Assembly: GCF_030817835.1 (NCBI RefSeq)
Contig: NZ_JAUSZR010000001.1
Location: 2,356,001-2,420,000 of the forward strand
DNA length: 64,000 nucleotides
From: Pseudarthrobacter sp. W1I19
GTDB taxonomy: Bacteria > Actinomycetota > Actinomycetes > Actinomycetales > Micrococcaceae
Direction: 5' to 3'
The position numbers and the translations under genes are program-made. Below are positions 18,676 through 40,002 of this stretch, piece after piece; position 1 is the first letter of the stretch, and every line of letters begins with the position of its first letter. The notes beneath the pieces are model-generated. The model was not told the DNA's origin and searched no databases. It saw only the letters and a program-made list of their open reading frames with translations.

Positions 18676-20129
18676 ATGAGCTCCTCATTTGACCCGGGAG
18701 GTCTTCACACCGAACTGTTCATCGATGGCGTCTGGCAGAAGGCCGCCAGCGGCGCCACTTTCCGGGTGGAGAATCCGGCCACCCATGAGGTCATCGCCCA
18801 CGTCGCAGACGGTGGCCCTGAGGACACGGCCCGGGCCATTCAGGCTGCGGGCCGCGCCCAGGCTGCCTGGGCGAAGTCCACACCCCGCGAACGTGCCGAT
18901 ATTCTGCGCCGCGCCTTCGAGTTGGTCGTGGCCAACACCGACCGGCTCGCAGCCATCATGACAGCGGAGATGGGCAAACCCCTGGCCGAAGCACGGGGCG
19001 AGGTGGCCTACGGTGCCGAAATGCTCCGCTGGTTCTCCGAAGAAGCCGTTCGCATCGGTGGTGACCATACCGCCTCCGTGGACGGCAACATCCGGATCAT
19101 GATAACCAAGGAACCCGTGGGTCCCTGCGTGCTGGTCACCCCCTGGAACTTCCCGCTGGCCATGGGCGCCCGCAAGATCGCCCCAGCCATTGCCGCCGGT
19201 TGCACCATGGTCTTCAAACCCGCCGAACTGACGCCCCTGACATCCCTCGCCCTGGTACAGCTCTTCCGGGAGGCAGGCTTGCCCGACGGCGTCCTGAACG
19301 TCGTCACCACTACCAGCGCCGCCAGCGTGGTGGAGAACTGGACCAGCAGCGGCATTGCCCGCAAGATCAGCTTCACCGGATCCACCCAGGTAGGCAAGAT
19401 CCTGCTGCGCCAGGCCGCAGACAACGTCATGCGCTCCTCGATTGAACTGGGCGGAAACGCCCCGTTCATCGTCCTGGCCGACGCAGACATTGAAAAGGCA
19501 GCCGACGGCGCCATGAAAGCCAAAATGCGGAACATGGGTGAAGCCTGCACCGCGGCGAACCGCTTCTTCGTGCACCGGTCCGTCGTCGGGGAATTCAGCG
19601 ATAAGTTCGCCTAGAAGATCTCCGAACTGCAGGTCGGTAACGGCGCCCTGCCCGGGACCGAAGTCGGTCCCCTGATCGAGCAGAAGGGCCTGGACAAGGT
19701 CGAAAGCCTCGTGGCCGACGCCGTGTCCAAGGGCGCACGGGTCCTCACTGGCGGCACCCGCCCCGAAGGTCCGGGCTACTTCTACACTCCCACCGTCCTG
19801 ACCGACGTGCCCCTGAACGCCGACCTAATGAGCACTGAGATCTTCGGACCGGTAGCAGCAATCACCCACTTCGACAGCGAAGACGAAGTCCTCCGCGTCG
19901 CCAACAACACCCAACGGGGCCTCGTGGGCTACGTCTTAACCGAAAACATGGGCAAGGCCCTGCGATTCTCCCAAGAACTCGAAGTCGGAATGGTCGGCAT
20001 TAACACCGGGTTGTCTCCAACCCGGCCGCACCATTCGGCGGCATTAAGCAGTCCGGACTGGGACGCGAAGGCGGCAAAATCGGCATCGAAGAATTCCTCG
20101 AGTACAAATACACCGCGATAGCGGTCTAG
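18676..20129 (+). pseudogene. Aldehyde dehydrogenase disrupted by an in-frame amber codon and a frameshift
   Basis: The frame encodes an ALDH very like the intact one at 3620: TPWNFPLA, IELGGNAPF (general base Glu) and the catalytic Cys in GEACTAANR (about residue 291). At codon 313 (19612-19614) a TAG interrupts the frame where family members continue without a break (KISELQVGNGALPG reads on). Near 20008-20012 one base is missing: the frame should switch to give [20 protein letters not shown] and finish at the TAG at 20127-20129. A 312-residue truncated product keeps the catalytic Cys but loses part of the catalytic domain and the oligomerisation arm. Assembly error is possible, but two independent lesions make a pseudogene more likely. 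Confidence 0.85.
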
Positions 20130-21209: not shown

Positions 21210-21777
21210 TTAAAGCGTTCGACTGCAGCCGAGCACGCGCTCGGTGACCTCCTCGATGCTGCCCATGCCATCGACCTGGGTCAGGATGCCGCGCCGTGCA
21301 TACTGATCCACAACGGCGCTGGTTTGCTCATGGTAGAGGTCCAGGCGGTGGCGGATGACGGCCTCATTGTCGTCGGAGCGGCCGGTTTCCTTCGCCCGGT
21401 CAAGCAGGCGGTCAATGAGTTCGTCATTGCCTGCCGTCAGCTGCAGTACGGTATCGAGCTCCTGGCCGCCTTCGGCGAGGATCTGGTCCAGGTAGTCCGC
21501 CTGCGCGACGTCCGCGGATAGCCGTCCAGCATAAAGCCGTGGTCCACGTCGGGTCCGCTGAGGCGGTTACGCACCTCTTGTTGGTGACGCTGTCCGGAAC
21601 GAAGTCGCCAGCGTCCATGTACTTCCTGGCTTCCAGGCCAAGACGGGTCTGGCCCTGCACATTGGCACGGAAAATCTCACCTGTGGAAATGGCAACCACG
21701 CCAAGACGGGCTGAAATCCGCTCCGCCTGGGTTCCCTTGCCGGATCCGGGTGGTCCAATGATCAACATCCTCGTCAT
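21210..21777 (-). pseudogene. Second adenylate kinase gene with two single-base deletions
   Basis: From ATG 21777 on the minus strand the frame starts with [18 protein letters not shown] (Walker A P-loop), then [12 protein letters not shown] and [10 protein letters not shown], a clear adenylate kinase. One base is missing after the VTNK codons (about 21585). After restoring frame, the NMP-binding region ([10 protein letters not shown]) appears, then a second single-base loss (about 21525). After that the frame reads [31 protein letters not shown] and a C-terminal helix up to the TAA at 21210-21212. The essential adk is presumably elsewhere in the ribosomal protein region. This divergent copy is dead or wrongly assembled. 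It trails the aromatic operon. Confidence 0.82.
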
Positions 21778-21819
21778 AACAAAATGCACCTTGGAACTCT
21801 TAGTCGTTCTGCCGCCGGG

Positions 21820-22308
21820 TCACTCAGCAGAGCCCCGCAGGGCCCTGACGAAGTGCTCAGGCCAGGGCTGGGCAGCCGCGGCTCCCGCCGGGACGTACGC
21901 CGTGGTGACCGTGCCGAAAGCCGCCACCGTACCGAAGTCGGGATGGGCGCCGTCGGGAGCAAAGGTAGATTCGCCCCGGACCTCGAAACCCATGGTCAGC
22001 GAGGTCCGGCCAAGCGCGTTGATTTTCACCGTTGCCCTCACGCGCTGGCCGAACCACAGCTTTGCCTTGTAATTGACCACCTGCTGGACACGGGGCGCGC
22101 AAGGAAAGTATTCGGGCAGCCGCAAGCTGCGGAACAGTTCCGCCTCTGCCGCCTCCACCCACCGCAGGATGGCGGAATTGTGCTGGTGTCCCGAGGCATC
22201 GGTATCCACCCACTCCACTGTCCGCTCAACGCTTGCCTCCGGAAACGGCGTGCCCGGGCCTGCAGCACGCGCCGTGGAGGCACTCCCCCGTATGTCAGCG
22301 TGATCCAT
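21820..22308 (-). CDS. Acyl-CoA thioesterase, hotdog fold (4HBT-like)
   Basis: 162 residues. The segment WVDTDASGHQHNSAILRWVEAAE carries the Asp of 4-hydroxybenzoyl-CoA thioesterase-type proteins (VxxxDxxxGHxxN). It could release the free aromatic acid from the hydroxylated aryl-CoA made by the upstream monooxygenase. ATG 22308 was chosen because AGGAG stands 5 bp before it; the longer open frame to 22368 has no support. The stop codon of the MFS gene lies only 7 bp upstream, so the two are translated from one message. Confidence 0.82.
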   Translation of the reverse strand: MDHADIRGSASTARAAGPGTPFPEASVERTVEWVDTDASGHQHNSAILRWVEAAEAELFRSLRLPEYFPCAPRVQQVVNYKAKLWFGQRVRATVKINALGRTSLTMGFEVRGESTFAPDGAHPDFGTVAAFGTVTTAYVPAGAAAAQPWPEHFVRALRGSAE

Positions 22309-22315
22309 GATTCTC

Positions 22316-23689
22316 CTAGCGGGCGCCGATTCCGGCGACCTCTTCGTCAGTGTCGCCGTCGGCAGCATTCGAAGGAACCAGCGGTTCGGCCAGCGGCTTG
22401 GGAATCATCGCTACCGCCGCGGCGGCAAGCACCGCGATTCCGGCGAAGATCGCGAAGTTGGCCTCGAACGGCAGTTTGGAACCGGCGATCCAGCCGCCGA
22501 TCAAGGGGCCGGAGATGGCGCCCAGCCTGGCGAAGCTCAGGGCCCATCCTGTGGCGGTGCCACGGATCTTGGCGGGGTAGTAGTCGGCGATGTAGCCGGT
22601 CAGGACCAGGGACGTGGAGATGGACCCGATGCCGGCGAAGGCGACGAACAGCAGGTTGACCACCATGGTGTTCGGGAAGACCAGCAGCATGATGCCCAGG
22701 CCGCCCAGGATGTAGAACACCACGAGGATGAGCTTCTTGCCGTACTTGTCTGCGGCTCGGCCCAGGAGCAGGCCGCCGATGGCGGAAGCAAGGCTGAAGA
22801 CCAGCAGGAAGGTCAGTGATGAGCCCAGGTCGTAGCCGGCCTTCTTCATGATGCTCGGCAGCCAGGTGTTCAGGCCGTAGACGAGGAGCAGGCCGCAGAA
22901 GAGCGAGATCCAGAAGAAGACGGTGGAGCGCAGGTACTTGCGGGAGAACATGGTGGTGATGGTCTTCCACCACGGTTCCGCCACTGCCCCGGAGGTGGCC
23001 GGCGCAGGCGCAGCCACTGGCGTGTAATCGGCTATGTTGAGCTTGGCGGCCAGGGCTTTCGCCTCGGATCTGCGTCCCTTGGTCTCGAGGTAATCGAGCG
23101 ATTCGGGGAGTAGTTTCCAGATGATTGGGAGCAGCACGATCGGTGCGGCGCCGATCGCGATCACCGCCCGCCAGCCGCCCAAGGGCAGGACGAACATTGC
23201 AGCCAGGGCGGCAGCCACGATGCCCAGCGAGTACCCGGAGTACATAAGGCCATAGTTGAAAGAGCGCTTGTTGGGAGCCGAGTATTCGATGGTCAGCGCA
23301 GCTGCCACGGGAATGATGCCGCCCATGCCCAGGCCGCCGATCAGGCGGAAGAGTCCGAACAGTTCCGGGGTGGGCGCCCAAGCTGCCCCGGCCTGGGTCA
23401 GCGTAAAGATGGCCATGGAGGCCAGCAGCATCTTCTTCCGGCCCACGAGGTCGCTGAGGGTGCCTATGAAGAGAGCGCCGATCAGCATGCCTACCAGTGC
23501 GTACGATCCCAGCCCGCCAAGGGCGAGTGGACTGAGGTTCCATTCTTTGTACTCGGCCAGCGCCGGTAGGACGGCGCCGAGGACGCCGACGTCGTAGCCT
23601 TCGGCCAGGATGGCCAGCCAGCAGCAGAAGAGGACGAGTCCGGTGGTGCGGGAGGGGACTTTCCAGTCCGTCACAGGTGCGTTTGCCAT
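22316..23689 (-). CDS. MFS transporter, aromatic acid:H+ symporter family
   Basis: 457 residues and about twelve hydrophobic segments. The N-terminal part has the AAHS hallmark EGYDVGVLGAVLPAL after TM1, the loop 2-3 signature GTLSDLVGRKK, and GMGGIIPVAAALTIEYS. The central loop (KGRRSEAKALAAKL) and the C-terminal GRAADKYGKK motif are normal. Relatives import benzoate, hydroxybenzoates, gentisate or protocatechuate. Here it probably brings in the substrate of the aryl-CoA ligase. It starts 2 bp after the stop of the monooxygenase gene. Confidence 0.92.
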   Translation of the reverse strand: MANAPVTDWKVPSRTTGLVLFCCWLAILAEGYDVGVLGAVLPALAEYKEWNLSPLALGGLGSYALVGMLIGALFIGTLSDLVGRKKMLLASMAIFTLTQAGAAWAPTPELFGLFRLIGGLGMGGIIPVAAALTIEYSAPNKRSFNYGLMYSGYSLGIVAAALAAMFVLPLGGWRAVIAIGAAPIVLLPIIWKLLPESLDYLETKGRRSEAKALAAKLNIADYTPVAAPAPATSGAVAEPWWKTITTMFSRKYLRSTVFFWISLFCGLLLVYGLNTWLPSIMKKAGYDLGSSLTFLLVFSLASAIGGLLLGRAADKYGKKLILVVFYILGGLGIMLLVFPNTMVVNLLFVAFAGIGSISTSLVLTGYIADYYPAKIRGTATGWALSFARLGAISGPLIGGWIAGSKLPFEANFAIFAGIAVLAAAAVAMIPKPLAEPLVPSNAADGDTDEEVAGIGAR

Positions 23690-23691
23690 GG

Positions 23692-26082
23692 CTACTTCAC
23701 CAGGACCGGTGTCGAGGAGGAAGCGGGGGTCCAGCGAAGATGTGGGTTGGTGGTTTCAGCATCTGGTTCCTTCAATAGGGACAAGCGGGGACGTACAGCA
23801 TCGGTGCGGGAGCTTGGCGGCTTGCGGCGGCCCGCGCGGAATTGCGGGATCCATGTGGCGCCCGGGCCCTGGTAGCCCTGGTCCGCCGCTGCGTGCAGGG
23901 TCCACTGGGGGTCGTACAGGTGGGTGCGGCCCAGGGCGATGAGGTCGGCGCGGCCTGCGAGGAGGATGGAGTTGACGTCGTCGTAGCTGGAGATGGCGCC
24001 GACGGCGATCACTGCCGCGCCTGCCGGTGCGGCCACTTCCTGGCGGATGCGGTCAGCGAACGGGGTTTGGTAGCTGCGGCCGAAGGCCGGCTTTTCCTCC
24101 TTGGCCACCTGGCCGGTGGAGACGTCCAGGCCGGCTGCGCCGTGGGCTACGAAGGCCCGGGCGATTTCGATGGAATCGTCGGAGGTGTTGCCGCCCTCGA
24201 TCCAGTCCGTTGCCGAGATGCGCACCGTCACTGGCTTGTCCGCCGGCCAGGCTGCGCGGACGGCGTCGAAGACCTCCAGGGGGAACCGCAGCCGGTTCTC
24301 CAGGTTGCCGCCGTACTCGTCGGTCCGGCGGTTGGAAACCGGCGAGAGGAATGAGGACAGCAGGTAGCCGTGGGCTGCATGGACTTCGAGCAGGTCGAAT
24401 CCGGCTTCCTCGGCCCGCAACGTGGCGGCGACGAACTCCTCTTTGATCGAGTCCATCCCGGCGCGGTCCAGCTCCAGGGGAACCTGGTTCCGCGGGCCGT
24501 AGGCGAGGGCGGAGGGACCAACGGCCTGCCAGTTTCCGGCCTCCAGAGGTTCGTCGATGCCTACCCACATGAGCTTGGTGGAGCCCTTGCGGCCCGAGTG
24601 GCCGATCTGGGCGCCGATCTTGGCGGTGGACTGGCTGTGGACGAAGTCCACGATTTCCTTCCAGCTGTCCAGCTGGTCGTCGGTGTAAAGGCCGGTGCAG
24701 CCGGGGGTGATCCGGCCCGCTTCGGAGACACACACCATTTCGGTCATCACCAGGGCCGCACCGCCCAGGGCCTTGGATCCGAGGTGAACTTTGTGAAAGT
24801 CGCCGGGGATACCGTCAACGGCGGAGTACATGTCCATGGGAGAGACCACCACGCGGTTCTTCAGTTCCAGCCCGCCGATGCGGAAGGGCTGGAACATGGC
24901 CGGCGCGACCTGTGTCAGGCCCTGAGATTCGGCAAAATTCCGCTCCACGGCCGCGGCGAACTCCGGGTCGCGAAGGCGCAGATTCTCCTGGGTGATGCGG
25001 CGGCTGCGGGTCAGCAGGTTGAAGGCGAACTGTGTGGGGTCCTGGTCCTTGTACTGGCCGATCCGCTCGAACCATTCAAGGGATGCCTGGGCAGCACGCT
25101 GGGTGGAGGCCACCACAGGACGCCGTTCGGCCTCGTAGGCGGCAAGTGCAGATTCGACGTCAGTATGTTCATGCAGGCAGGCGGCCAAGGCCAGCGAGTC
25201 CTCCATGGCCAGTTTGGTGCCTGAACCGATGGAGAAGTGTGCCGTGTGGGCAGCGTCCCCAATGAGGACAATGTTGCCCTTGCTCCAGCTCTGATTGCGG
25301 ACGGTGTTGAAGTTCAGCCATTTGGAGTTGTTGGCGAGGACTTCGTAACCCTCCAGCTCCTCAGCGAAAATTTCACGGATCTTGGCGATCGCCTTCTCGT
25401 CAGAGACACCTGGCGGGAAGACTTCATTCGCGGTTTCGTCGAAGCCGGCGGCGCGCCACACGTCCTCGTGCATCTCAACGATGAACGTGGAACCCTCGTC
25501 CGAGTACGGGTAGCCGTGGATCTGCATGACGCCCCACTCGGTCTCTTTCACAAAGAACTTGAAGGCCTCAAAGACTTGGTCCGTGCCGAGCCACATGAAC
25601 TTGTTGGTGCGCGGATCCAGGTCAGGGCCAAAGGCATCGGCGTACTTTGTCCTGATCTGCGAGTTGACGCCGTCCGCGGCCAAGACCAGATCGTAGTTGG
25701 CTTCGAGCTCTTCAATGGCAGGGGCCAAGGTCTGGAAGCGCAGGTCAACGTTGAGCTCCGCGCAGCGGCGCTGAAGCAGCTCCAACAGTTCCTTGCGGCT
25801 CATGGCAGCGAAACCCTGGCCGCCCACGCTGATCATTTTCCCGCCGAAGTGGATGTCGATGTCAGCCCAGCGGGCGAAACGACGGCTCATGTAATCGGCC
25901 ACAACGGGGTCAGCGTTGCCGATCCCGCCCAGGGTTTCGTCGGAAAAGACGACGCCGAAGCCGAAGGTGTCTCTCGCAGCGTTCCGTTCCCAGAGCGTGA
26001 TCTCGTGGGCCGGGTCCAGCTGTTTCATCAGTGCTGCGAAGTACAGGCCGCCCGGGCCGCCTCCAACAATTGCGATTTTCAT
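23692..26082 (-). CDS. Fused aryl-CoA monooxygenase and old yellow enzyme (salicylyl-CoA 5-hydroxylase / anthraniloyl-CoA monooxygenase-reductase type)
   Basis: 796 residues in two domains. Residues 1 to about 390 form a class A FAD monooxygenase: IVGGGPGGLYFAALMKQ at the N-terminus and GDAAHTAHFSIGSGTKLAMED around residue 275. From about residue 400 an NADH:flavin oxidoreductase (old yellow enzyme) follows, starting FRIGGLELKNRVVVSPM, with QIGHSGRKGS and HAAHGYLLSSFLSP. This architecture is known for 2-aminobenzoyl-CoA monooxygenase/reductase and for salicylyl-CoA 5-hydroxylase of the gentisate route. Sequence alone does not decide between salicylate and anthranilate. ATG 26082 has AAGGAG 7 bp upstream; an open frame extends further but lacks homology. 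Confidence 0.9.
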   Translation of the reverse strand: MKIAIVGGGPGGLYFAALMKQLDPAHEITLWERNAARDTFGFGVVFSDETLGGIGNADPVVADYMSRRFARWADIDIHFGGKMISVGGQGFAAMSRKELLELLQRRCAELNVDLRFQTLAPAIEELEANYDLVLAADGVNSQIRTKYADAFGPDLDPRTNKFMWLGTDQVFEAFKFFVKETEWGVMQIHGYPYSDEGSTFIVEMHEDVWRAAGFDETANEVFPPGVSDEKAIAKIREIFAEELEGYEVLANNSKWLNFNTVRNQSWSKGNIVLIGDAAHTAHFSIGSGTKLAMEDSLALAACLHEHTDVESALAAYEAERRPVVASTQRAAQASLEWFERIGQYKDQDPTQFAFNLLTRSRRITQENLRLRDPEFAAAVERNFAESQGLTQVAPAMFQPFRIGGLELKNRVVVSPMDMYSAVDGIPGDFHKVHLGSKALGGAALVMTEMVCVSEAGRITPGCTGLYTDDQLDSWKEIVDFVHSQSTAKIGAQIGHSGRKGSTKLMWVGIDEPLEAGNWQAVGPSALAYGPRNQVPLELDRAGMDSIKEEFVAATLRAEEAGFDLLEVHAAHGYLLSSFLSPVSNRRTDEYGGNLENRLRFPLEVFDAVRAAWPADKPVTVRISATDWIEGGNTSDDSIEIARAFVAHGAAGLDVSTGQVAKEEKPAFGRSYQTPFADRIRQEVAAPAGAAVIAVGAISSYDDVNSILLAGRADLIALGRTHLYDPQWTLHAAADQGYQGPGATWIPQFRAGRRKPPSSRTDAVRPRLSLLKEPDAETTNPHLRWTPASSSTPVLVK

Positions 26083-26096
26083 GGTTCTGCTCCTTC

Positions 26097-27755
26097 TCAC
26101 GCCTGGCTCTGGCCGGCGGGGGTGAGTTCTTGGGTTTCGTCCGCGATGGAGTCGCGGAGTTTGAAGTGCTGCAGTTTGCCGCTGGGGTTGCGCGGCAGCT
26201 CGGTGACGAAGCGGATGTCCCGCGGGTACTTGTAGGGCGCGATGGTCGCTTTCACGAAGTCCTGGATTTCCTTGCGCTTGCCGGCGTCGCCGATGACGCC
26301 GTCGCGCAGCACCACGAAGGCGCACACCACACTGCCCCGCTCGGGGTCGGGGCGGCCAATTACGGCGTTTTCGACCACATCGGGATGCTGGTCGATGGCC
26401 GCTTCCACCTCGGGAGCGCCGATGTTGTAGCCGGAGGAGACGATCATGTTGTCCGACCGGGCCTGGTACGTGAAGTAGCCGTCCTCGTCCATGACGAAGG
26501 TGTCACCTGTGACGTTCCAGCCGCTGACCACATAGTTTGCTTGCCGTGCGTCATCGAGGTAGCGGCAGCCGGTGGGACCGATGACTGCAAGGCGGCCGCT
26601 CTGTCCAGGCCCGACCTCATTGCCTTCGCCGTCAAGGATGGTGGCCCGGTAGCCCGGGACAGCCCGGCCTGTGGTACCGGGACGGATGTCATCCCCCGCC
26701 GCGGAAATAAAAACGTGCAGCAGCTCCGTGGAACCGATTCCGTTGATCAGTCGCAGTCCGGTTGCCTCGTGGACAGCCTCCCACGTCTCCTTGGACAGAT
26801 GCTCGCCCGCGGAAACGGCAATCCGCAGGCCGCGGAGCAGGTCGCCTCGCCCCTCCTTGAGAATGGCACGGTATGCAGTGGGGGCAGTGAAGAGAACGGT
26901 AGCCCCGGCAACTGCAGCATGTTCGGCGAGCTCCACCGGTCCAGCCCTTTCAGTGAGCAGAGATGATGCGCCGAACCGTAAGGGAAAGACCACGAGTCCG
27001 CCCAGCCCGAAAGTAAAGGCCAGGGGCGGTGAACCCGCAAAGACGTCGTCCGCGGTGGGTTGCAGGATGTGCCGGGCGAAGGTGTCGGCATTGGCCAGGA
27101 TGTCCCGGTGGAAGTGCATGGTCACCTTCGGCGCGCCGGTGGTGCCCGAGGTCGGTCCCAAGAGCGCGACGTCGTCGGCTGCGGTATCCACAGCCGTGAA
27201 CCGCCCGCTTTTAGAAGCACAGCGCAAAGTGAGGTCGCCGTCATCATCGCTTCCGTAGGGCAGGACGGAGACGTCCTCCCCTGCCGCCAGGGCGAGCTCG
27301 GCAATGAAGCGGTGATCCGAGATGGCAACGACGGGTTTGGTGAGCTGGATCAGGGAAGCGACTTCGGCGGAGCGCAGCATGGGCATGGTGGTCACCACGA
27401 CTGCCCCGGCCTTCAGTACACCCAGCCAGGCGGCGACAATCCACGGATTGTTGGGACCGCGGAGCAGCACGCGGTTCCCGGGCACCACACCGAGGTCTTC
27501 CGTGAGGACCTGGGCTACCTGGTTGGCGCGCTTTTGAAGTTCCCCGTAGGTCCAGACGGGACCGCCCGGGGTTCGCAGCGCGGGCCGGTCCGCGCCGTGC
27601 TCGGCGACGGCACTGTCGATGAGCGCAACGGCGGCGTTAAGCCGTTCAGGGTACTGGAGTTCTGGAAGGGTGAATTCGAGCGCCGGCCAGGTGTCGGCGG
27701 GCGGCAGGTGGTCGCGGGTGAACGTGTCCACGTGGGCCGATGGCGTCATGCTCAT
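26097..27755 (-). CDS. Aryl-CoA ligase (benzoate / 2-aminobenzoate / salicylate-CoA ligase family)
   Basis: 552 residues. The AMP-binding P-loop is GPTSGTTGAPKVTMHFH (about 185-200). The A8 hinge and GYFTYQARSDNMIVSSGYNI segment follow, and the C-terminal catalytic Lys lies in RNPSGKLQHFKLRD. The MHFHRD after the P-loop and the ALAFTFGLGGL stretch resemble benzoate-CoA ligases. It would convert the imported aromatic acid to its CoA thioester with ATP. It sits 14 bp upstream of the fused monooxygenase, which uses such thioesters. RBS AAAGGA. Confidence 0.9.
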   Translation of the reverse strand: MSMTPSAHVDTFTRDHLPPADTWPALEFTLPELQYPERLNAAVALIDSAVAEHGADRPALRTPGGPVWTYGELQKRANQVAQVLTEDLGVVPGNRVLLRGPNNPWIVAAWLGVLKAGAVVVTTMPMLRSAEVASLIQLTKPVVAISDHRFIAELALAAGEDVSVLPYGSDDDGDLTLRCASKSGRFTAVDTAADDVALLGPTSGTTGAPKVTMHFHRDILANADTFARHILQPTADDVFAGSPPLAFTFGLGGLVVFPLRFGASSLLTERAGPVELAEHAAVAGATVLFTAPTAYRAILKEGRGDLLRGLRIAVSAGEHLSKETWEAVHEATGLRLINGIGSTELLHVFISAAGDDIRPGTTGRAVPGYRATILDGEGNEVGPGQSGRLAVIGPTGCRYLDDARQANYVVSGWNVTGDTFVMDEDGYFTYQARSDNMIVSSGYNIGAPEVEAAIDQHPDVVENAVIGRPDPERGSVVCAFVVLRDGVIGDAGKRKEIQDFVKATIAPYKYPRDIRFVTELPRNPSGKLQHFKLRDSIADETQELTPAGQSQA

Positions 27756-27811
27756 GGCCGTTCCTTTCAGTGGTGCGCCGGTGAGGCTGATGGTTGGGTG
27801 TATGAGGGGGG

Positions 27812-28684
27812 TCAGGCGCCTGGGCGGATCATGCCCTCTTGGGCGACGGTGGCAAGGAGCCGTCCCTGGCGGTCAAAGAAGCGGCCCATGGCCAGGCCCC
27901 TGTTGCTTTGGCCGGACACGGCCTCCTGGGCGTAAAGGATCCATTCGTCCGCACGGCCGTCGCGGTGGAACCACATGGAGTGGTCCAGGCTGGCGGTGGC
28001 GAGTCCGGGGCTGGACCAGTGGAGTCCGTTGACCCTCAGGAGCGGTTCGAGGATGGTGTAGTCGCAGACATAGGCAAGGGCGGAGCGGTGGAGGTCTGCG
28101 TCGTCCGGCAGGGCGTCGAAGGCCTTGACCCAGATGGCCTGCTGGGCCACGGGGCCGCCCTCGAGCTCAACGTAGACAGGTCCCGGGACATGCCGCATGT
28201 CGAAGCTGCGCCCGGCGGACCAGTAGTTGGCGGCCGGCCCTTCGGCTCCCGCCAGGCTTTCAGCTGCGCTGCGCAACGAGTCAGGTTCGACGGCGGCGGG
28301 AACTTCAGGCTGGAAGTCCGGGCCGTCCTCGGGAACCTGGAACGAACCCATCGCGGCGTAGACAGCCTTGCCGTTCTGGAATCCACGCACTGTCCGGGTG
28401 GAGTACCCCCGGCCGTCACGCAGGCGCTCCACTTCGTAGCGGATGGTTGCCCCGACGTCGACCGGCCGCATGAAGTAGCTGTGCATTGAGTGCAGCGCCC
28501 TGTCTTCATCGACTGAGCGCATCATGGCCGCTGCCGCCTGGGCCACCATGTCCCCGCCGTAGGCCTTCGGCCAGGGTACGTACTGGGTAGTGGCCTCATA
28601 GGCCTCGTCGTAAACCTCGGCCGGAGCGGGCGTCAGCTCCATGGCCCGCAGGAACGTCTCCGAGGTGAGGGTGCCCGTGATCAT
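27812..28684 (-). CDS. Acyl-CoA thioesterase II (TesB-like, double hotdog)
   Basis: 290 residues in two hotdog repeats. The first half has MHSYFMRPVDVGATIRYEV and the second DYTILEPLL with SLDHSMWFHRDGRADEWILY, the TesB pattern. With the 4HBT-type protein at 21820 the operon has two thioesterases of different folds; one may handle the aryl-CoA product and the other relieve trapped CoA. It begins 6 bp after the cupin stop with a weak ribosome site. Confidence 0.88.
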   Translation of the reverse strand: MITGTLTSETFLRAMELTPAPAEVYDEAYEATTQYVPWPKAYGGDMVAQAAAAMMRSVDEDRALHSMHSYFMRPVDVGATIRYEVERLRDGRGYSTRTVRGFQNGKAVYAAMGSFQVPEDGPDFQPEVPAAVEPDSLRSAAESLAGAEGPAANYWSAGRSFDMRHVPGPVYVELEGGPVAQQAIWVKAFDALPDDADLHRSALAYVCDYTILEPLLRVNGLHWSSPGLATASLDHSMWFHRDGRADEWILYAQEAVSGQSNRGLAMGRFFDRQGRLLATVAQEGMIRPGA

Positions 28685-28689
28685 CGCGG

Positions 28690-29172
28690 TCAGGCCCTGC
28701 GGTAGCCGGCGAGGGTCTCGTCGGCCACGTCGTCGAGGTTGACCACCAGGTTCTCCGGGGTGCGGGCGGTCAGCCAGACGAGCTCCTCGGTGACGGACAT
28801 GTTTGCCTCCACATGGGGCATGAACGGCGGGACGAAGACCCAGTCGCCGGCCTTCATGTCGAGGAATTCCTGGAAGTGTTCCCCGAAGTAGATCCGGCCG
28901 TGGCCGCGCAGCACGTAGCCGCCGGTTTCAGCCTCGCCGTGGTGGTGCGGAAGGGAGCGGTACCCGGGGGTGTTGGACACCTGGCCGAACCAGATCTTAG
29001 TGGCAGGGGTGTGCTGGATGCTGACGCCCGAGACGCGGATGCAGTCCCCTGACTGGGCCGTGTTGGTGTCCTCGTGCCCGGCCCGGGTCACCACGGGGAC
29101 CACCTTGCCGTCGGCCTGGGCATAGATGGAGTTGTCGCCTTCGAGGCGGTAATCGGTGGCTGTCTGGTTCAT
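28690..29172 (-). CDS. Single-domain cupin, possible metalloenzyme of the aromatic pathway
   Basis: 160 residues with both cupin motifs: the metal-ligand set in LPHHHGEAETGGYVLRGHG and GDWVFVPPFMPH. It is half the length of gentisate 1,2-dioxygenase (about 350, bicupin), yet stands where a ring-cleavage enzyme is needed, between an FAH hydrolase and thioesterase/ligase genes. A mononuclear iron dioxygenase, an isomerase, or a binding protein are all possible. ATG 29172 has AAGGAG 8 bp upstream, while the GTG at 29181 directly abuts that site. Confidence 0.75.
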   Translation of the reverse strand: MNQTATDYRLEGDNSIYAQADGKVVPVVTRAGHEDTNTAQSGDCIRVSGVSIQHTPATKIWFGQVSNTPGYRSLPHHHGEAETGGYVLRGHGRIYFGEHFQEFLDMKAGDWVFVPPFMPHVEANMSVTEELVWLTARTPENLVVNLDDVADETLAGYRRA

Positions 29173-29177
29173 TGCGG

Positions 29178-30029
29178 TCACTCCTTGGTTGATGTTGGAC
29201 GGATGCGGACGACGTTTTCAAGGCGTCCGATTCCGGTGATTTCGGTGGTGAGCACGTCGCCGTCGTTCAGGAACCGGGGCGGTGTCATGCCCATGCCCAC
29301 TCCTCCGGGCGTTCCTGTCAGGACGAGGTCCCCGGGGCGCAGGGTGGTGAACTGGGAGATGTAGGAAAGCAGTTTTGCCGGGCCGAACACCAGGGTGCCG
29401 GTGTTGCCTTTTTGGACGACGTCGCCGTTGACATAGCCAACGACGTCGAAGGTTTCGCCGGCCTCGTCTGCCGTGATCAGGACGGGTCCCACCGGGGTGG
29501 TGGCGTCGAATGCCTTGCCCTGGAACCACTGCAGTGTCCGGTTTTGCCAGTCGCGCATGGAGACGTCATTGGCGACCGTATAGCCGGCTATTGCCGCTGC
29601 TGCCCCGTCCTCGTCGGCCCGGAACAGTTCTGAACCGACGACGACGGCCAGCTCGGCTTCCCAGTCGACGCGGTCGCTTCCGTGGACCTCGATGGTGTCG
29701 GCCGCTCCCACCAGGGTGTCCGCGTACTTGGCGAACAGGGTGGGGTACAGGGGAAGTTCCCTGCCCATCTCCTGGATGTGGTCCGCGTAGTTCAGTCCGC
29801 AGCAGATGACCTTGCCGGCGCGGGGAAGAAGGGGGGCGTAGTCAGCGTCCGCCGCTTCAATCACCACCGGCTTCTCTGCACCAGCGGCCTCGCGGACCAC
29901 ATCCCGCCAGTCCGCCCGGGCCAGCAGTTCCCCGACGTCGGAGGCCGGGAGCGCAAGGTAGGCGTCGGCACCCGTGGCGAGTGCCGCCGTCGTTCCCTGT
30001 CCGGCTGTGCGCAAGGTGGCGAGTTTCAT
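29178..30029 (-). CDS. Fumarylacetoacetate hydrolase-family enzyme (acylpyruvate / fumarylpyruvate hydrolase type)
   Basis: 283 residues. The FAH catalytic core shows GLNYADHIQEMG, LFAKYADTLVG, the acidic metal ligands in VDWEAELAVVVG, and TGTPGGVGMGM near the end. Family members hydrolyse acylpyruvates such as fumarylpyruvate (last step of gentisate breakdown) or decarboxylate oxo-acids. It is the first gene of the minus-strand aromatic operon and diverges from ridA. ATG 30029 (GAAGGGACAG upstream) fits family N-termini; the open frame up to 30077 does not. Confidence 0.9.
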   Translation of the reverse strand: MKLATLRTAGQGTTAALATGADAYLALPASDVGELLARADWRDVVREAAGAEKPVVIEAADADYAPLLPRAGKVICCGLNYADHIQEMGRELPLYPTLFAKYADTLVGAADTIEVHGSDRVDWEAELAVVVGSELFRADEDGAAAAIAGYTVANDVSMRDWQNRTLQWFQGKAFDATTPVGPVLITADEAGETFDVVGYVNGDVVQKGNTGTLVFGPAKLLSYISQFTTLRPGDLVLTGTPGGVGMGMTPPRFLNDGDVLTTEITGIGRLENVVRIRPTSTKE

Positions 30030-30062
30030 TGATTCTGTCCCTTCGAGATGATGTGTCGACTT

Positions 30063-30077
30063 TTTTACGATCGTCAC
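30063..30077 (+). promoter_or_regulatory. Candidate PaaX-regulator operator in the FAH-ridA divergent region
   Basis: TTTTACGATCGTCAC, centred on the palindrome ACGATCGT. A near copy (12 of 15) is at 33396-33410 before the ThDP enzyme gene, and ACGATCGT itself recurs at 33378. It is 34-48 bp upstream of the FAH start. Assignment to the PaaX-type protein is inference. Confidence 0.5.
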
Positions 30078-30161
30078 ATATGCTCAACGTAGCACGGCGG
30101 AATTGATCTGCACAGAGCCTTTCCGGAACTTTTTCAGAAGCCACACAGCAGGAGGAACAGC

Positions 30162-30560
30162 ATGGGCCACAAGACGGTCAACCCGGAATCCCTTCCCAAA
30201 CCGTCCGGGTTCGCGCACGGGATTCTCGCCGGGAATACGGTGTTCCTGGGCGGCCAGACGGCGCTGGACAAGGACATGAAGATCGTCCCCGGCGGGATCG
30301 TGGAGCAGTTTACGCAGGCGTTCTCGAACGTCCTCACCACACTCCGCGAGGCCGGCGGCCAGCCCGACGACCTGGTCAACGTGACCATCTTCCTCACGGA
30401 CGTGGAGGACTACATGGCCCATGGACGCGAAATTGGCCGGATCTGGCGTGATATGGCGGGTTCGCAATACCCGGCCATGGCAGGCATCGGCGTCACCCGC
30501 CTGTGGCAGGAAGAGGCGTTGATCGAGATCCAGGCCATCGCCGTCATCAGCGAACGCTGA
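30162..30560 (+). CDS. ridA: RidA-family enamine/imine deaminase
   Basis: 132 residues, canonical length. Landmarks: VFLGGQTALD, NVTIFLTDVEDY and the C-terminal GVTRLWQEEALIEIQAIAV. The Arg of the VxRL segment, which binds the substrate carboxylate, is kept (unlike the RidA-like protein at 10755). It hydrolyses unstable enamines/imines. If the operon across the divergent promoter handles an aminated aromatic, it would have a direct job there. RBS AGGAGG is 6 bp before ATG 30162. It is the only plus-strand gene in this aromatic region and ends at a strong terminator. Confidence 0.9.
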   Translation: MGHKTVNPESLPKPSGFAHGILAGNTVFLGGQTALDKDMKIVPGGIVEQFTQAFSNVLTTLREAGGQPDDLVNVTIFLTDVEDYMAHGREIGRIWRDMAGSQYPAMAGIGVTRLWQEEALIEIQAIAVISER

Positions 30561-30636: not shown

Positions 30637-31557
30637 CTAGGCTGCTTCCGCTTCCTCCACCAGGGACATGGCGTACAGCTCTGCGAGCGGAGCGATCAGG
30701 CGGTGCACGCTGAAGAAGATCCGGCGCGCCTCGGGCCCCTGCCAGCCCGGCGGCAGGTACTCCAGAGGCAGGCCGGGGTCGCGGTAGGGCAAGCGCCGCC
30801 ATAGGGTCAGCATGGGCACGTAGTAGCGGAAAGCGTCCCGGCGAAGCTCCTCCGAGGAAGAGGCCAGCGCCTTGTCGGGGTCATCCCCCACCAGCGCCGT
30901 CCAGTCCTCCAGCGATCCGCCGTACGTGTCCATGAACTCGGAGATCTGCGACTCCAGGGCCTCCAGGTCCCACCATTGGGCCACCTTCGCCCGCATGTCT
31001 GATTCCGCTGAGTAGTCGCCGGTGAAAAACTCCACGTACTCGTCCAGCCCCCGGGATTCGAGCCGCTTCCTTGCGCCCTCACGCACTCCGGAGGGAGCGA
31101 TCCAGACGCCCGCCCCCATGGAACCAAAACCCAGCCTGGTCAGCTCGGTGCGCAACTGGTGCCGCCGGTCCCGCATCGACTCCGGTACGGAAAAGATGGC
31201 CAGGACCCACGGGGCTCCGGTGGCTGCGCGGTAGGGGGCGAAGATGCGTTCATCGCCCTCACTCACCAGCTTCAGTGAACGCTCGGAGAGCTCGTACCTG
31301 GCCACTCCCCCGCTCTTGACGCTCGTCAGGACGCCTTTGGCCTTCAGCCGCGAAACGGCCGAGCGGACGCCGGGCGCATCGTGGCCCAGCTCGCCCAGCA
31401 TCTGGATCAGCACCGAAATGGGAAGCTGGCCGCCGCCGCGGCGCCCGTAGAGACCGTAGATCGTCAGGATGAGCTGCTGCTGGGGCAGGGAAGGAACAGG
31501 CACAGCAAGCATTCGGCCGGGTCTCGATTCTGTCAGGGTCACAGTCCTTCCAAGCAT
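30637..31557 (-). CDS. PaaX-family transcriptional regulator
   Basis: 306 residues, the usual PaaX size. The N-terminal winged HTH region (QQLILTIYGLYGRRGGG, then GVRSAVSRLKAKGVL) and the C-terminal PaaX domain (WWDLEALESQISEFMDTYG, RDAFRYYVPML, PPGWQGPEA) are clear. PaaX represses the phenylacetate pathway and responds to phenylacetyl-CoA, so an aryl-CoA is a reasonable effector here. It lies 23 bp behind the ThDP enzyme gene in the same direction. The start could be ATG 31557 or GTG 31542, which has GGAAGG close before it. Confidence 0.88.
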   Translation of the reverse strand: MLGRTVTLTESRPGRMLAVPVPSLPQQQLILTIYGLYGRRGGGQLPISVLIQMLGELGHDAPGVRSAVSRLKAKGVLTSVKSGGVARYELSERSLKLVSEGDERIFAPYRAATGAPWVLAIFSVPESMRDRRHQLRTELTRLGFGSMGAGVWIAPSGVREGARKRLESRGLDEYVEFFTGDYSAESDMRAKVAQWWDLEALESQISEFMDTYGGSLEDWTALVGDDPDKALASSSEELRRDAFRYYVPMLTLWRRLPYRDPGLPLEYLPPGWQGPEARRIFFSVHRLIAPLAELYAMSLVEEAEAA

Positions 31558-31580: not shown

Positions 31581-33299
31581 TCAGTGGCCTTTAAACGCTT
31601 CCGCCAGCCACCACGCACCGCCGTCGGAAGCTATGCGGGCATCAATGACCAGGGGTGCTTCGCGGGAGCCTGCCAGCCATTCCGAGACCCCGGCAAGGTC
31701 TCCCACCGTACGGACCGTGAGCGCGGCAGCGCCATATCCGCGGGCGATCGAGGCGATGTCCACCTGCGGGAACCGCACGACGTCCAGGTCCTCGTCATCC
31801 GCGTCGAAGTGATGGACTTCCGCGCCATAGGCGGAGTCGTTGTAGACGATGGCAACCAGCGGGATTCGCTCGCGGACCAGCGTCTCCAGTTCGGAGATGG
31901 CCATCAGGAAACCTCCGTCGCCTGCTCCCAGGACGGGCAGCCGGTCAGGCCGGGCCTTGGCAGCACCAATAGCCGTGTAGAGACCAAGGCCGATCGATTG
32001 GAAGGCCTGGGTGAAGCAGAATCCGAACTCGTCCGGAACGGACAGGTAGGTGCTGGGATAGCCCATGAAGTTGCCGGAATCGATGGATACGATGCGTTCC
32101 GGCGGCAGGATGCGGTCCAGTTCCCGGCTCAGCACGCGGGGATCGATGGTCTCCGCGGTGGACAAATCTTCTGTTGGCTCGGTGTTCCACCGCGCATGGG
32201 CTGCGATGCGTTCCGCCATTTCCGGGCTCCGGAGGCCTACCTGGGCGTGGCCGAGGGACCGGAGCCTGGCCAGCACAGCCGCCGCCGTTTCGGCGCTGTC
32301 GCCCAGCACTCCCAGGTCGATGGGGCGGTTGGCTCCAAGGGCCCGGTCCTCAAGATCCACCTGCACTACTTTCGCGGTGGCGCTGATGAGTGAACCGTGG
32401 CGCATTGTCCACATGTTCAGGGCGCATCCCCACCCGACGATCAGGTCGGCTTCAGAAATGGTTGCCGCGGTGAAAGGAGAGGAAAAACCGCCCGATATGC
32501 CCAGGTTGAACGGGTCACCTTGGAACAGGCCGTGCGCTACGGCGGATGTTGCCACAAGTGCCCCCGCAGCCTCCGCCAGCGCGGCGATTTGAGGTCCAGC
32601 CGTACGGCCGCCGCGGCCGGCCACAAAGACCGGCCGCCGGGCGTTACGGAGAAGCTCTGCCAGCTCGTCAACAGCCGCATGCGATGGTGCGAACAGCTGC
32701 GGCGGTGCCAGCGGTCCCGCTGCCAGGTTCCCATCCGGCACGGGTGCCGCCTGGATATCAGTAGGCAGCGACAGCACCACCGTCCTGCGCTCATTGACTG
32801 CCGTCCGGTACGCCCGAACAGTGTCAGCCACTGCGCTTTGCGGTGAATGGATCCGCTCAGCCACTGCACCAACACTCCGGGCCAGCGCATCCTGGTCAAT
32901 CCTGAAGTTGGACCCCACGGCGGACGCGGCCGTGTCCGCCGTGAGCACGATCACGGGTGTGCGGCTCTTGGCAGCTTCGCCGATGCCGGTCACCGCATTG
33001 GTCAGCCCACAGCCTTGGTGGGTGGAGACGACGCCCACTTTTCCGGACATGCGCCCATAGGCGTCGGCCATGGTGGCAGCGCCTCCTTCATGGCGGGCTG
33101 CCGTATAGGGCACGCCGGCCCGGCGCAGCGCATTGGTCACCACGAAGTTCCCGCTGCCCACCACGCCGAAAACGTGCCCGACGCCGAGTTGGGCCAGCGT
33201 GTATCCGACGAGTTCGCTGATACTTCCGGCCTCAGGACGAGCCGAATCGTGTTGTTTAACCACGTCGCTGCCTCCCAACCTGCTGGTGATAACAGTCAT
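31581..33299 (-). CDS. Thiamine diphosphate-dependent enzyme (acetolactate synthase / benzoylformate decarboxylase superfamily)
   Basis: 572 residues in the three-domain layout. The N-terminal Glu that activates ThDP is in ARHEGGAATMADAYGR (about residue 70), the central domain follows, and the Mg-ThDP motif is GDGGFLMAISELETL to NDSAYG (about 460-490). Which 2-oxo acid it decarboxylates or carboligates is not visible. It is co-transcribed with the PaaX-type regulator and so probably belongs to the same aryl-CoA regulon. ATG 33299 has AAAGGAG 8 bp upstream; the open frame to 33374 crosses the promoter region. Confidence 0.85.
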   Translation of the reverse strand: MTVITSRLGGSDVVKQHDSARPEAGSISELVGYTLAQLGVGHVFGVVGSGNFVVTNALRRAGVPYTAARHEGGAATMADAYGRMSGKVGVVSTHQGCGLTNAVTGIGEAAKSRTPVIVLTADTAASAVGSNFRIDQDALARSVGAVAERIHSPQSAVADTVRAYRTAVNERRTVVLSLPTDIQAAPVPDGNLAAGPLAPPQLFAPSHAAVDELAELLRNARRPVFVAGRGGRTAGPQIAALAEAAGALVATSAVAHGLFQGDPFNLGISGGFSSPFTAATISEADLIVGWGCALNMWTMRHGSLISATAKVVQVDLEDRALGANRPIDLGVLGDSAETAAAVLARLRSLGHAQVGLRSPEMAERIAAHARWNTEPTEDLSTAETIDPRVLSRELDRILPPERIVSIDSGNFMGYPSTYLSVPDEFGFCFTQAFQSIGLGLYTAIGAAKARPDRLPVLGAGDGGFLMAISELETLVRERIPLVAIVYNDSAYGAEVHHFDADDEDLDVVRFPQVDIASIARGYGAAALTVRTVGDLAGVSEWLAGSREAPLVIDARIASDGGAWWLAEAFKGH

Positions 33300-33377
33300 T
33301 GTCTCTTCTCCTTTGGGACAACGCGCGTGACGCGCAGCCGGCGTCGTCATTGGTGCTGGCGGGATCCCGCGCATGGG

Positions 33378-39195: not shown

Positions 39196-40002
39196 ATGGA
39201 ACTAAGCGCTGTGAATGATGCACGCCAGACAGGACTGGCAAGCCTGCTTGCAGACCTAGCCACTGGACGGACTGAACTGGTGGACCTCACCACCCCGCTC
39301 TCGGCGGCAACCCCCACCCTGGAGTTGCCGGAGCCGTTCGCCAATCTCATCGATTTCTCGCTCGAGGAAGTCTCCGCCTACAACGCGCCGGGACCTTACT
39401 GGAAGCACCACAACATCCATACCGGTGAGCACATCGGCACCCATGTGGACGCCCCCATACACTGGGCCACGGGGCGGGACGGCAAGGACGTTGCGCAGAT
39501 CGATCCGGCCCGCCTGCTTGGTCCCGCGGTTGTTTTGGACGTCAGGGCCGAGGCCGCGGCGGACCCGGATTTCTTAGTGGACATCCACCATATCCGCGCG
39601 TGGGAGTCGGAGCACGGAGCGTTGCCGAAGGGCGGCTGGCTTCTGGTGCGGACGGGATGGGACAGCCGCTCCCAGGACAGGGAAAGCTTCCTCAACAAGG
39701 ATGAGCAGGGCCACCCGCACTCCCCCGGGTTCACCGTCGAATGCGCGCAGTGGATCGGCGAAGAATCCCCACTGTCCGGTGTCGGCGTTGAAACGGTGGG
39801 CATTGACGCCGGTGCCGCCGGCGGGCAGCAGCCTCCTTTCCCGGCCCATCACTTCCTGTTGGGAAATGACAAGTACGGCGTCACTTCGCTTCGGAACCTG
39901 GCGCAGCTGCCGCCGGTAGGCGCAGCGCTCATCGTGGCTCCGTTGCCGATTGTCGGTGGAACCGGGAGCCCGGCGCGGGTATTCGCCCTGGTTGACGCCT
40001 GA
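39196..40002 (+). CDS. Cyclase-family metal-dependent hydrolase (kynurenine formamidase-like)
   Basis: 268 residues. The signature HTGEHIGTHVDAPIHW (HxGTHxDxPxH; about residues 75-90) binds the metal. Family members hydrolyse N-formylkynurenine, isatin or cyclic amides/lactones. The gene diverges from the MFS gene; the 266 bp between them contain no other gene, only a small CCTGCCA/TGGCAGG inverted repeat near 39050. RBS GGAGGAG before ATG 39196. Substrate unknown. Confidence 0.85.
   Translation: MELSAVNDARQTGLASLLADLATGRTELVDLTTPLSAATPTLELPEPFANLIDFSLEEVSAYNAPGPYWKHHNIHTGEHIGTHVDAPIHWATGRDGKDVAQIDPARLLGPAVVLDVRAEAAADPDFLVDIHHIRAWESEHGALPKGGWLLVRTGWDSRSQDRESFLNKDEQGHPHSPGFTVECAQWIGEESPLSGVGVETVGIDAGAAGGQQPPFPAHHFLLGNDKYGVTSLRNLAQLPPVGAALIVAPLPIVGGTGSPARVFALVDA

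Follow-up and report, generated by a model that had tools for sequence, protein, structure and literature searches.

Gene Content of the Locus

We analyzed a stretch of 64,000 nucleotides from the genome of Pseudarthrobacter sp. W1I19 (NCBI RefSeq assembly GCF_030817835.1, contig NZ_JAUSZR010000001.1, positions 2,356,001 to 2,420,000), hereafter the window, which carries a gene cluster that we propose degrades anthranilate through coenzyme A (CoA) esters, with a small cupin as the candidate ring-opening enzyme. In window coordinates, the cluster consists of the following genes:

21820-22368 (-): 4HBT-type thioesterase (PF03061)
22316-23689 (-): major facilitator superfamily importer, similar to aromatic acid:H+ symporters (TIGR00895, 297 bits, below the cut-off of 419; PF07690)
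23692-26085 (-): fused FAD monooxygenase/old yellow enzyme (OYE) of the 2-aminobenzoyl-CoA monooxygenase/reductase type (NF006101, 1219 bits, cut-off 1078)
26097-27755 (-): AMP-forming anthranilate-CoA ligase (TIGR02262, 316 bits, below the cut-off of 375)
27812-28684 (-): TesB-like acyl-CoA thioesterase, proposed to release the ring-opened acid (PF02551/PF13622)
28690-29181 (-): single-domain cupin of 163 residues, proposed ring-opening dioxygenase (Pfam Cupin_2/Cupin_1)
29178-30077 (-): FAH-family hydrolase, proposed acylpyruvase (succinylpyruvate hydrolase; PF01557)
30162-30560 (+): divergent RidA-family enamine/imine deaminase (PF01042)

Family scans recovered every gene named in an earlier, sequence-only reading of this DNA, that is, the ligase, the fused monooxygenase/OYE, two thioesterases, the FAH hydrolase, the importer, the cupin, and the divergent RidA. 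That reading had also noted that the bicupin gentisate 1,2-dioxygenase (GDO) and maleylpyruvate isomerase are missing from the operon, and indeed neither of these, nor a maleate-isomerase-type gene, has a match in the 64-kb window (tblastn, E 1e-10). The same search found no match to enoyl-CoA hydratase or acyl-CoA dehydrogenase in the whole window. Both the FAD motif (GxGxxG) and the OYE motif (HxxHxY) of the monooxygenase/OYE are intact. The RidA protein carries VTRLW near its C-terminus, as do most homologs in similar form, and the conserved arginine near the RidA C-terminus is substrate-binding. The cupin and FAH reading frames overlap by 4 bases, and an internal ATG at residue 17 is the likelier start of the FAH protein.

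The metal ligands of the cupin (H79, H81, E85, and H123) are invariant across 48 aligned sequences, and the HxHxxxE...H motif is intact in all 99 homologous cupin stretches from 96 loci, so that the small cupin with a complete metal motif described beside the FAH gene is borne out. Its AlphaFold2 model has a cupin fold (mean pLDDT 79), and the protein thus combines the double-stranded β-helix and the HxH...E...H motif by which the cupin superfamily is recognized. It has no NCBIfam match at E 0.001 and is much shorter than bicupin GDO, which has two domains and about 350 residues. The 96 loci include the window, a short locus from the same genome (L002), and a locus in which a 29% match to a stand-alone OYE was counted as monooxygenase/OYE (L090); 78 of the cupin loci, like those on plasmids, were selected through a cupin hit, and only the family and class samples described below are free of such bias. 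Three clusters (L005, L006, and L024) each contain two cupins and two ligases, in the order RidA-cupin-ligase-monooxygenase/OYE and then FAH-cupin-TesB-ligase.

Anthranilate as the Probable Substrate

The substrate of the cluster is almost certainly anthranilate, because an orthologous cluster on plasmid pAL1 has a ligase of demonstrated activity and because the genes neighboring other clusters degrade the Pseudomonas quinolone signal (PQS), tryptophan, or isatin. On pAL1, the quinaldine plasmid of Arthrobacter sp. Rue61a, RidA stands divergent to FAH-cupin-TesB-ligase-monooxygenase/OYE, which is the gene order of the window, and the window proteins are ~81% (ligase) and 83% (monooxygenase/OYE) identical to the pAL1 copies. 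The pAL1 ligase and a chromosomal ligase of Rue61a are active on anthranilate (PMC3534580); we assigned ARUE_113p00220 to the pAL1 ligase gene by gene order. The primers of that study for the chromosomal ligase match the ligase gene of related clusters, at its start in 3 loci and at its end in 9. Neighbors of other clusters include aqdC1, tryptophan 2,3-dioxygenase (TDO) with a kynureninase-type gene, and isatin hydrolase with an indole monooxygenase-family gene.

Anthranilate metabolism in Rue61a apparently proceeds exclusively through CoA thioesters, and CoA esters assigned to C7H7NO3 and C7H8O4 were found only in anthranilate-grown cells; the authors suggested that C7H8O4 might be a cyclohexanedione-carboxylic acid (PMC3534580). 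None of gentisate, salicylate, and 5-hydroxyanthranilate supported growth of the strain; 5-hydroxyanthranilate was cometabolized (PMC3534580). The main text of that paper assigns the ligase and the monooxygenase/reductase, and the words cupin, fumarylacetoacetate, RidA, YjgF, deaminase, and enamine do not occur in it (PMC3534580). In the open-licence literature searched, we found nothing relevant that unites anthranilate, a cupin, and RidA, and the same paper was the only relevant one on succinylpyruvate, dioxopimelate, or cyclohexanedione-carboxyl-CoA.

Gentisate Dioxygenase Elsewhere in the Genome

The sequence-only reading had suggested that the missing dioxygenase might be encoded elsewhere and that the genome be searched for it. 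We found one GDO, ~2 Mb from the cluster, which scores 620 bits against a protein of solved structure that bears the name gentisate 1,2-dioxygenase. It lies in a gentisate operon (L081, G000:C1:4469000-4487000) together with 3-hydroxybenzoate 6-hydroxylase (356 bits, below the cut-off of 459), an FAH hydrolase, and mycothiol-dependent maleylpyruvate isomerase, all identified by family scan or structure match, and with an IclR-type regulator recognized by eye. Thus, the cluster could in principle make gentisate for this GDO, with the cupin in an accessory role, and a full-length GDO is also encoded in seven of eight genomes whose cupin loci lack FAH.

The distribution of GDO across the family argues against this explanation. 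Among 149 family genomes, the cupin ortholog and the monooxygenase/OYE occur in the identical 31 genomes; the cupin count leaves out, from 32 genomes, one that carries a 53% cupin paralog and no monooxygenase/OYE (G088). GDO was found in 17 of the 149 with a protein query (E 1e-60) or 19 with TIGR02272 (E 1e-15, used in place of the model's own cut-off, which none of the family genomes and none of 14 control genomes reached). By either query GDO is present in 5 of the 31 cluster-bearing genomes, near the number that chance alone would give (3.5 to 4), and absent from the other 26. A GDO encoded elsewhere, although real in the window genome, is therefore not the general answer, and we consider it very improbable that the cluster serves to feed one. 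FAH is found nearby in the window and in each of the 31 loci retrieved for the remaining 30 genomes, and RidA in the window and 30 of the 31, the miss (L218) being a locus that ends with its contig. The aminated, anthranilate-type intermediate that had been suspected from RidA is thus supported.

Apparent Exchange of Ring-Opening Modules across the Class

Of 296 genomes sampled across the class, 47 encode the monooxygenase/OYE and 7 the cupin, all 7 being among the 47. We fetched 48 class-wide loci by their monooxygenase/OYE hit, without refetching our own: 6 contain the cupin, 34 a hydratase (28 of these also the dehydrogenase), 2 GDO, and 6 none of these modules, and no locus contains two. 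Four of the 34 hydratase loci have matches of only 30-33% (L151, L159, L173, and L187), and contig ends cut L150, L151, L156, L162, L173, L179, L180, L185, L187, and L218. If draws are treated as independent, ignoring kinship, the chance of zero overlap between cupin and hydratase is 2.4e-4. All 6 cupin loci and 30 of the 34 hydratase loci also have RidA, which neither of the two GDO loci has. The latter (L180 and L184) contain, besides GDO and FAH, a nitrilase-like gene (recognized by eye) and an Asp/Glu-racemase-like gene, a type to which maleate isomerases belong, and are likely true salicylyl-CoA/gentisate types.

In the larger set of 96 cupin loci, the fused monooxygenase/OYE is present in 92 and a RidA match in 93; no hydratase or acyl-CoA dehydrogenase match was found in any except L090 (27-34%, no fused monooxygenase/OYE), a maleate-isomerase-type gene in none, and a maleylpyruvate-isomerase-type match in one (L075). 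Nine hand-picked proteobacterial clusters, found by monooxygenase/OYE alone, all encode enoyl-CoA hydratase, acyl-CoA dehydrogenase, and RidA (kynureninase in three), whereas two Rhizobium clusters and one from Alloyangia, found by the cupin, lack hydratase and dehydrogenase and contain cupin and FAH. Twelve loci hand-fetched from 40 monooxygenase/OYE plasmid rows comprise 11 of the hydratase type (L092-L101 and L103) and one of the cupin type (L102). In a tree of 74 monooxygenase/OYE proteins, which mixes cupin-chosen and unbiased sampling, the cupin state changes four times (Fitch), and the Rhizobium and Alloyangia cupin types are sister to hydratase types with support of 1.00 each. The mutual exclusion of the modules and this tree suggest that cupin plus FAH and hydratase plus dehydrogenase are alternative tools for the same intermediate. 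Thus, cupin and FAH appear to replace the β-oxidation ring-opening module on the same dearomatized intermediate, a placement that is well supported by comparative genomics and that makes the cupin the likely ring opener, as the sequence-only reading had considered.

A Proposed Pathway

We propose, with a probability of roughly 0.55, that the cluster degrades anthranilate via CoA esters and that the ring is opened oxygenolytically after dearomatization. The ligase would form anthraniloyl-CoA (step 1), an activity shown for a close relative (PMC3534580). After the fused flavoenzyme (step 2), RidA would hydrolyze an enamine to 2,5-dioxocyclohexane-1-carboxyl-CoA and ammonia (step 3); this cyclic β-keto thioester is the intermediate expected after flavoenzyme and RidA in both cluster types, and a CoA ester of the expected formula, C7H8O4, has been detected (PMC3534580). 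The cupin would then bind the enolate of the β-keto thioester on Fe(II) and cleave the C1-C2 bond with O2 in a Dke1-like manner (step 4), yielding 2,4-dioxopimeloyl-CoA (succinylpyruvyl-CoA). TesB would free succinylpyruvate, the reduced analog of fumarylpyruvate (step 5), which FAH would split into succinate and pyruvate (step 6). We infer the chemistry of steps 3 to 6, including what the cupin does, which bond is cleaved, and whether the cupin acts before TesB. Dke1, a cupin of 153 residues, cleaves many β-diketones that form cis-β-keto-enolates and places one oxygen atom in each product (PMC4019311), and in the breakdown of aromatic compounds, members of the RidA family deaminate enamines, 2-aminomuconate among them (PMC6449761).

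The presence of RidA in the cluster and the intact OYE motif, HxxHxY in all 31 proteins listed, imply that the intermediate is a reduced, nonaromatic enamine. A reduced product, the third option of the earlier reading, fits best, given that RidA would be expected only for a nonaromatic enamine. Because the OYE step would already have removed the ring double bond, no maleylpyruvate isomerase should be needed, which would account for the missing isomerase gene. The cupin might instead cleave an aromatic substrate (5-hydroxyanthranilate, gentisate, or their CoA esters), with FAH acting as a maleylpyruvate hydrolase. Small cupins such as 3-hydroxyanthranilate dioxygenase do cleave aromatic rings. 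In Rue61a, hydroxyanthraniloyl-CoA was presumed from its mass and 5-hydroxyanthranilate is cometabolized (PMC3534580); the presumed hydroxyanthraniloyl-CoA makes an aromatic branch possible. However, the reduced enamine implied by HxxHxY and by RidA in 93 of 96 cupin loci speaks against an aromatic substrate. Furthermore, a maleate-isomerase-type gene is absent from all 96 of these loci yet present in both GDO-type loci, which are without RidA, and Rue61a fails to grow on gentisate or 5-hydroxyanthranilate (PMC3534580), although a block in uptake could explain this. We therefore think cleavage of gentisate or 5-hydroxyanthranilate by the cupin, two of the options in the earlier reading, improbable.

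Somewhat less doubtful, but still unlikely, is a hydrolytic opening, in which FAH, or the cupin as a metal-dependent hydrolase or isomerase, would open the β-keto thioester without O2 and leave 4-oxopimeloyl-CoA to general β-oxidation encoded elsewhere. FAH enzymes as a family hydrolyze 1,3-dicarbonyls, the nearest cupin folds include proteins that do not use oxygen (hydroxynitrile lyase and phosphomannose isomerase), and the hydratase-type clusters may themselves open the ring by hydrolysis. This explanation has difficulty with the retention of the cupin where FAH is not found nearby, and 4-oxopimeloyl-CoA would require a hydratase and a dehydrogenase from elsewhere, since the cupin loci other than L090 do not encode them.

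Several observations weigh against oxygenolytic cleavage by the cupin. First, fold and sequence searches return generic cupins only (oxalate decarboxylase, hydroxynitrile lyase, and GDO), and none of the matches listed, whether by sequence or by fold, is Dke1. Second, the AlphaFold2 model resembles cupins of many functions, and oxygenase activity is thus unproven by fold; we know of no assay of this cupin. Third, three cupin loci lack the fused monooxygenase/OYE (L077, L084, and L090), and the substrate range of the cupin is perhaps wider as a result. Finally, no FAH match was found in 10 of the 96 cupin loci (L037, L049, L056, L077, L078, L080, L102, L143, L144, and L145), including 3 of the 6 in the class sample.

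These last loci bear on the role of the hydrolase. The best NCBIfam model for the window FAH is 2,4-diketo-acid hydrolase (191 bits, cut-off 500), a model against which the FAH of a Rhizobium cupin cluster reaches 426. With the FAH of the gentisate operon in the same genome, the window FAH shares 49% identity, and it keeps HxxE, ExE, and NDxSxRD, the His-Glu dyad and acidic metal ligands of the FAH family. The eight whole genomes searched, those behind every FAH-less locus except L077 and L102 (a plasmid record), include the seven with full-length GDO; in the eighth (G150), FAH and maleylpyruvate isomerase lie next to a GDO match that is shorter. An FAH of 49-51% identity directly adjoins GDO in each of the three genomes from the class sample, and of the remaining four full-length GDOs, three have FAH and the isomerase alongside. 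Where FAH lies near the cupin (31 genomes from the family and G361, G271, G201, and G154), only 6 of the 35 genomes have GDO; the difference from 7 of 8 (Fisher p 3.6e-4) was found post hoc in about four lineages and is uncorrected for kinship. It fits the view that FAH-less clusters borrow the gentisate-operon FAH for a similar acylpyruvate, but it could also mean that flux passes through gentisate in such strains.

In some relatives, all without the fused monooxygenase/OYE, the cupin stands beside other reductases. In L090 (5147-10423), a stand-alone alkene reductase adjoins the cupin and FAH is nearby; in L084 (9191-15640) and L091 (6289-8459) a short-chain dehydrogenase/reductase (SDR) and FAH lie alongside; and L077 (10001 onwards) has an SDR match only. 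Cupins beside stand-alone OYE or SDR genes suggest a general module for cyclic ketones. We give about even odds to the broader proposal that this single-domain cupin family, for which we found no characterized member, cleaves a nonaromatic cyclic β-keto CoA thioester with O2, a gentisate-like cleavage after reduction that would lead through succinylpyruvate to succinate and pyruvate, and that the cupin-FAH module, also found beside stand-alone OYE/SDR genes, would provide a general route for cyclic 1,3-dicarbonyls.

Relation to Known Pathways

The aerobic 2-aminobenzoyl-CoA pathway of Azoarcus evansii shares with the window cluster a CoA ligase and the fused monooxygenase/OYE (PMC4539516), and the flavoenzymes of Rue61a and A. 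evansii are 50% identical (PMC3534580). In A. evansii, the ligase and 2-aminobenzoyl-CoA monooxygenase/reductase are followed by β-oxidation (PMC4539516). The nine hydratase-type proteobacterial clusters, among which the A. evansii genes themselves are not included, resemble ours in encoding RidA; the window cluster differs from this type in that it has cupin and FAH but neither enoyl-CoA hydratase nor acyl-CoA dehydrogenase. The anthranilate-CoA pathway of Rue61a has the gene order of the window cluster on pAL1. The salicylyl-CoA (SdgABCD)/gentisate route has in common with the window a related 5-hydroxylase and an FAH hydrolase, as seen in the GDO-type loci, but it uses bicupin GDO together with an isomerase-type gene and is without RidA, the reverse of the window cluster. 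The database name "bifunctional salicylyl-CoA 5-hydroxylase/oxidoreductase" seems to misdescribe many fused monooxygenase/OYE proteins.

Dke1 resembles the window cupin in being a single cupin with the cupin metal motif, and β-dicarbonyl cleavage is what we propose for the latter; it differs in that no specific kinship in sequence or fold was seen among the matches listed and in that the proposed substrate here is a cyclic CoA thioester. Dke1 keeps the glutamate of the motif yet does not need it (PMC4019311), and the glutamate of the window cupin consequently does not discriminate. Anthranilate is the meeting point of tryptophan, indole, quinaldine, and PQS breakdown, and the comparison assigns the catabolic genes of this actinobacterial cluster roles that can be tested. 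It also predicts an enzyme activity, the cleavage of an alicyclic β-keto thioester with O2, for which an assay would be simple.

Neighboring Genes

Further genes considered in the window are:

30637-31557 (-): PaaX-family regulator (PaaX Pfam domains)
31581-33374 (-): thiamine diphosphate (ThDP) enzyme, possibly converting isatinate to anthranilate (TPP_enzyme domains)
39196-40002 (+): isatin-hydrolase-like cyclase-family enzyme (PF04199; among proteins of solved structure, isatin hydrolases match best, 234 bits)

The ThDP enzyme and the isatin-hydrolase-like gene suggest an upper pathway from isatin to anthranilate; among the 96 cupin loci, 37 have a ThDP match and 29 an isatin-hydrolase match. 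In L148, L149, L150, L157, and L164, the monooxygenase/OYE lies by isatin-hydrolase-like genes (with a ThDP enzyme in L148-L150), and the stretch contains no tested ring-opening module. Elsewhere in the window, an aldehyde dehydrogenase gene (18676-20121, +) is broken by a single in-frame stop, and an open reading frame at 21424-21789 (-) is adenylate kinase-like at its start but soon loses the similarity and looks, by eye, like a degenerate copy.

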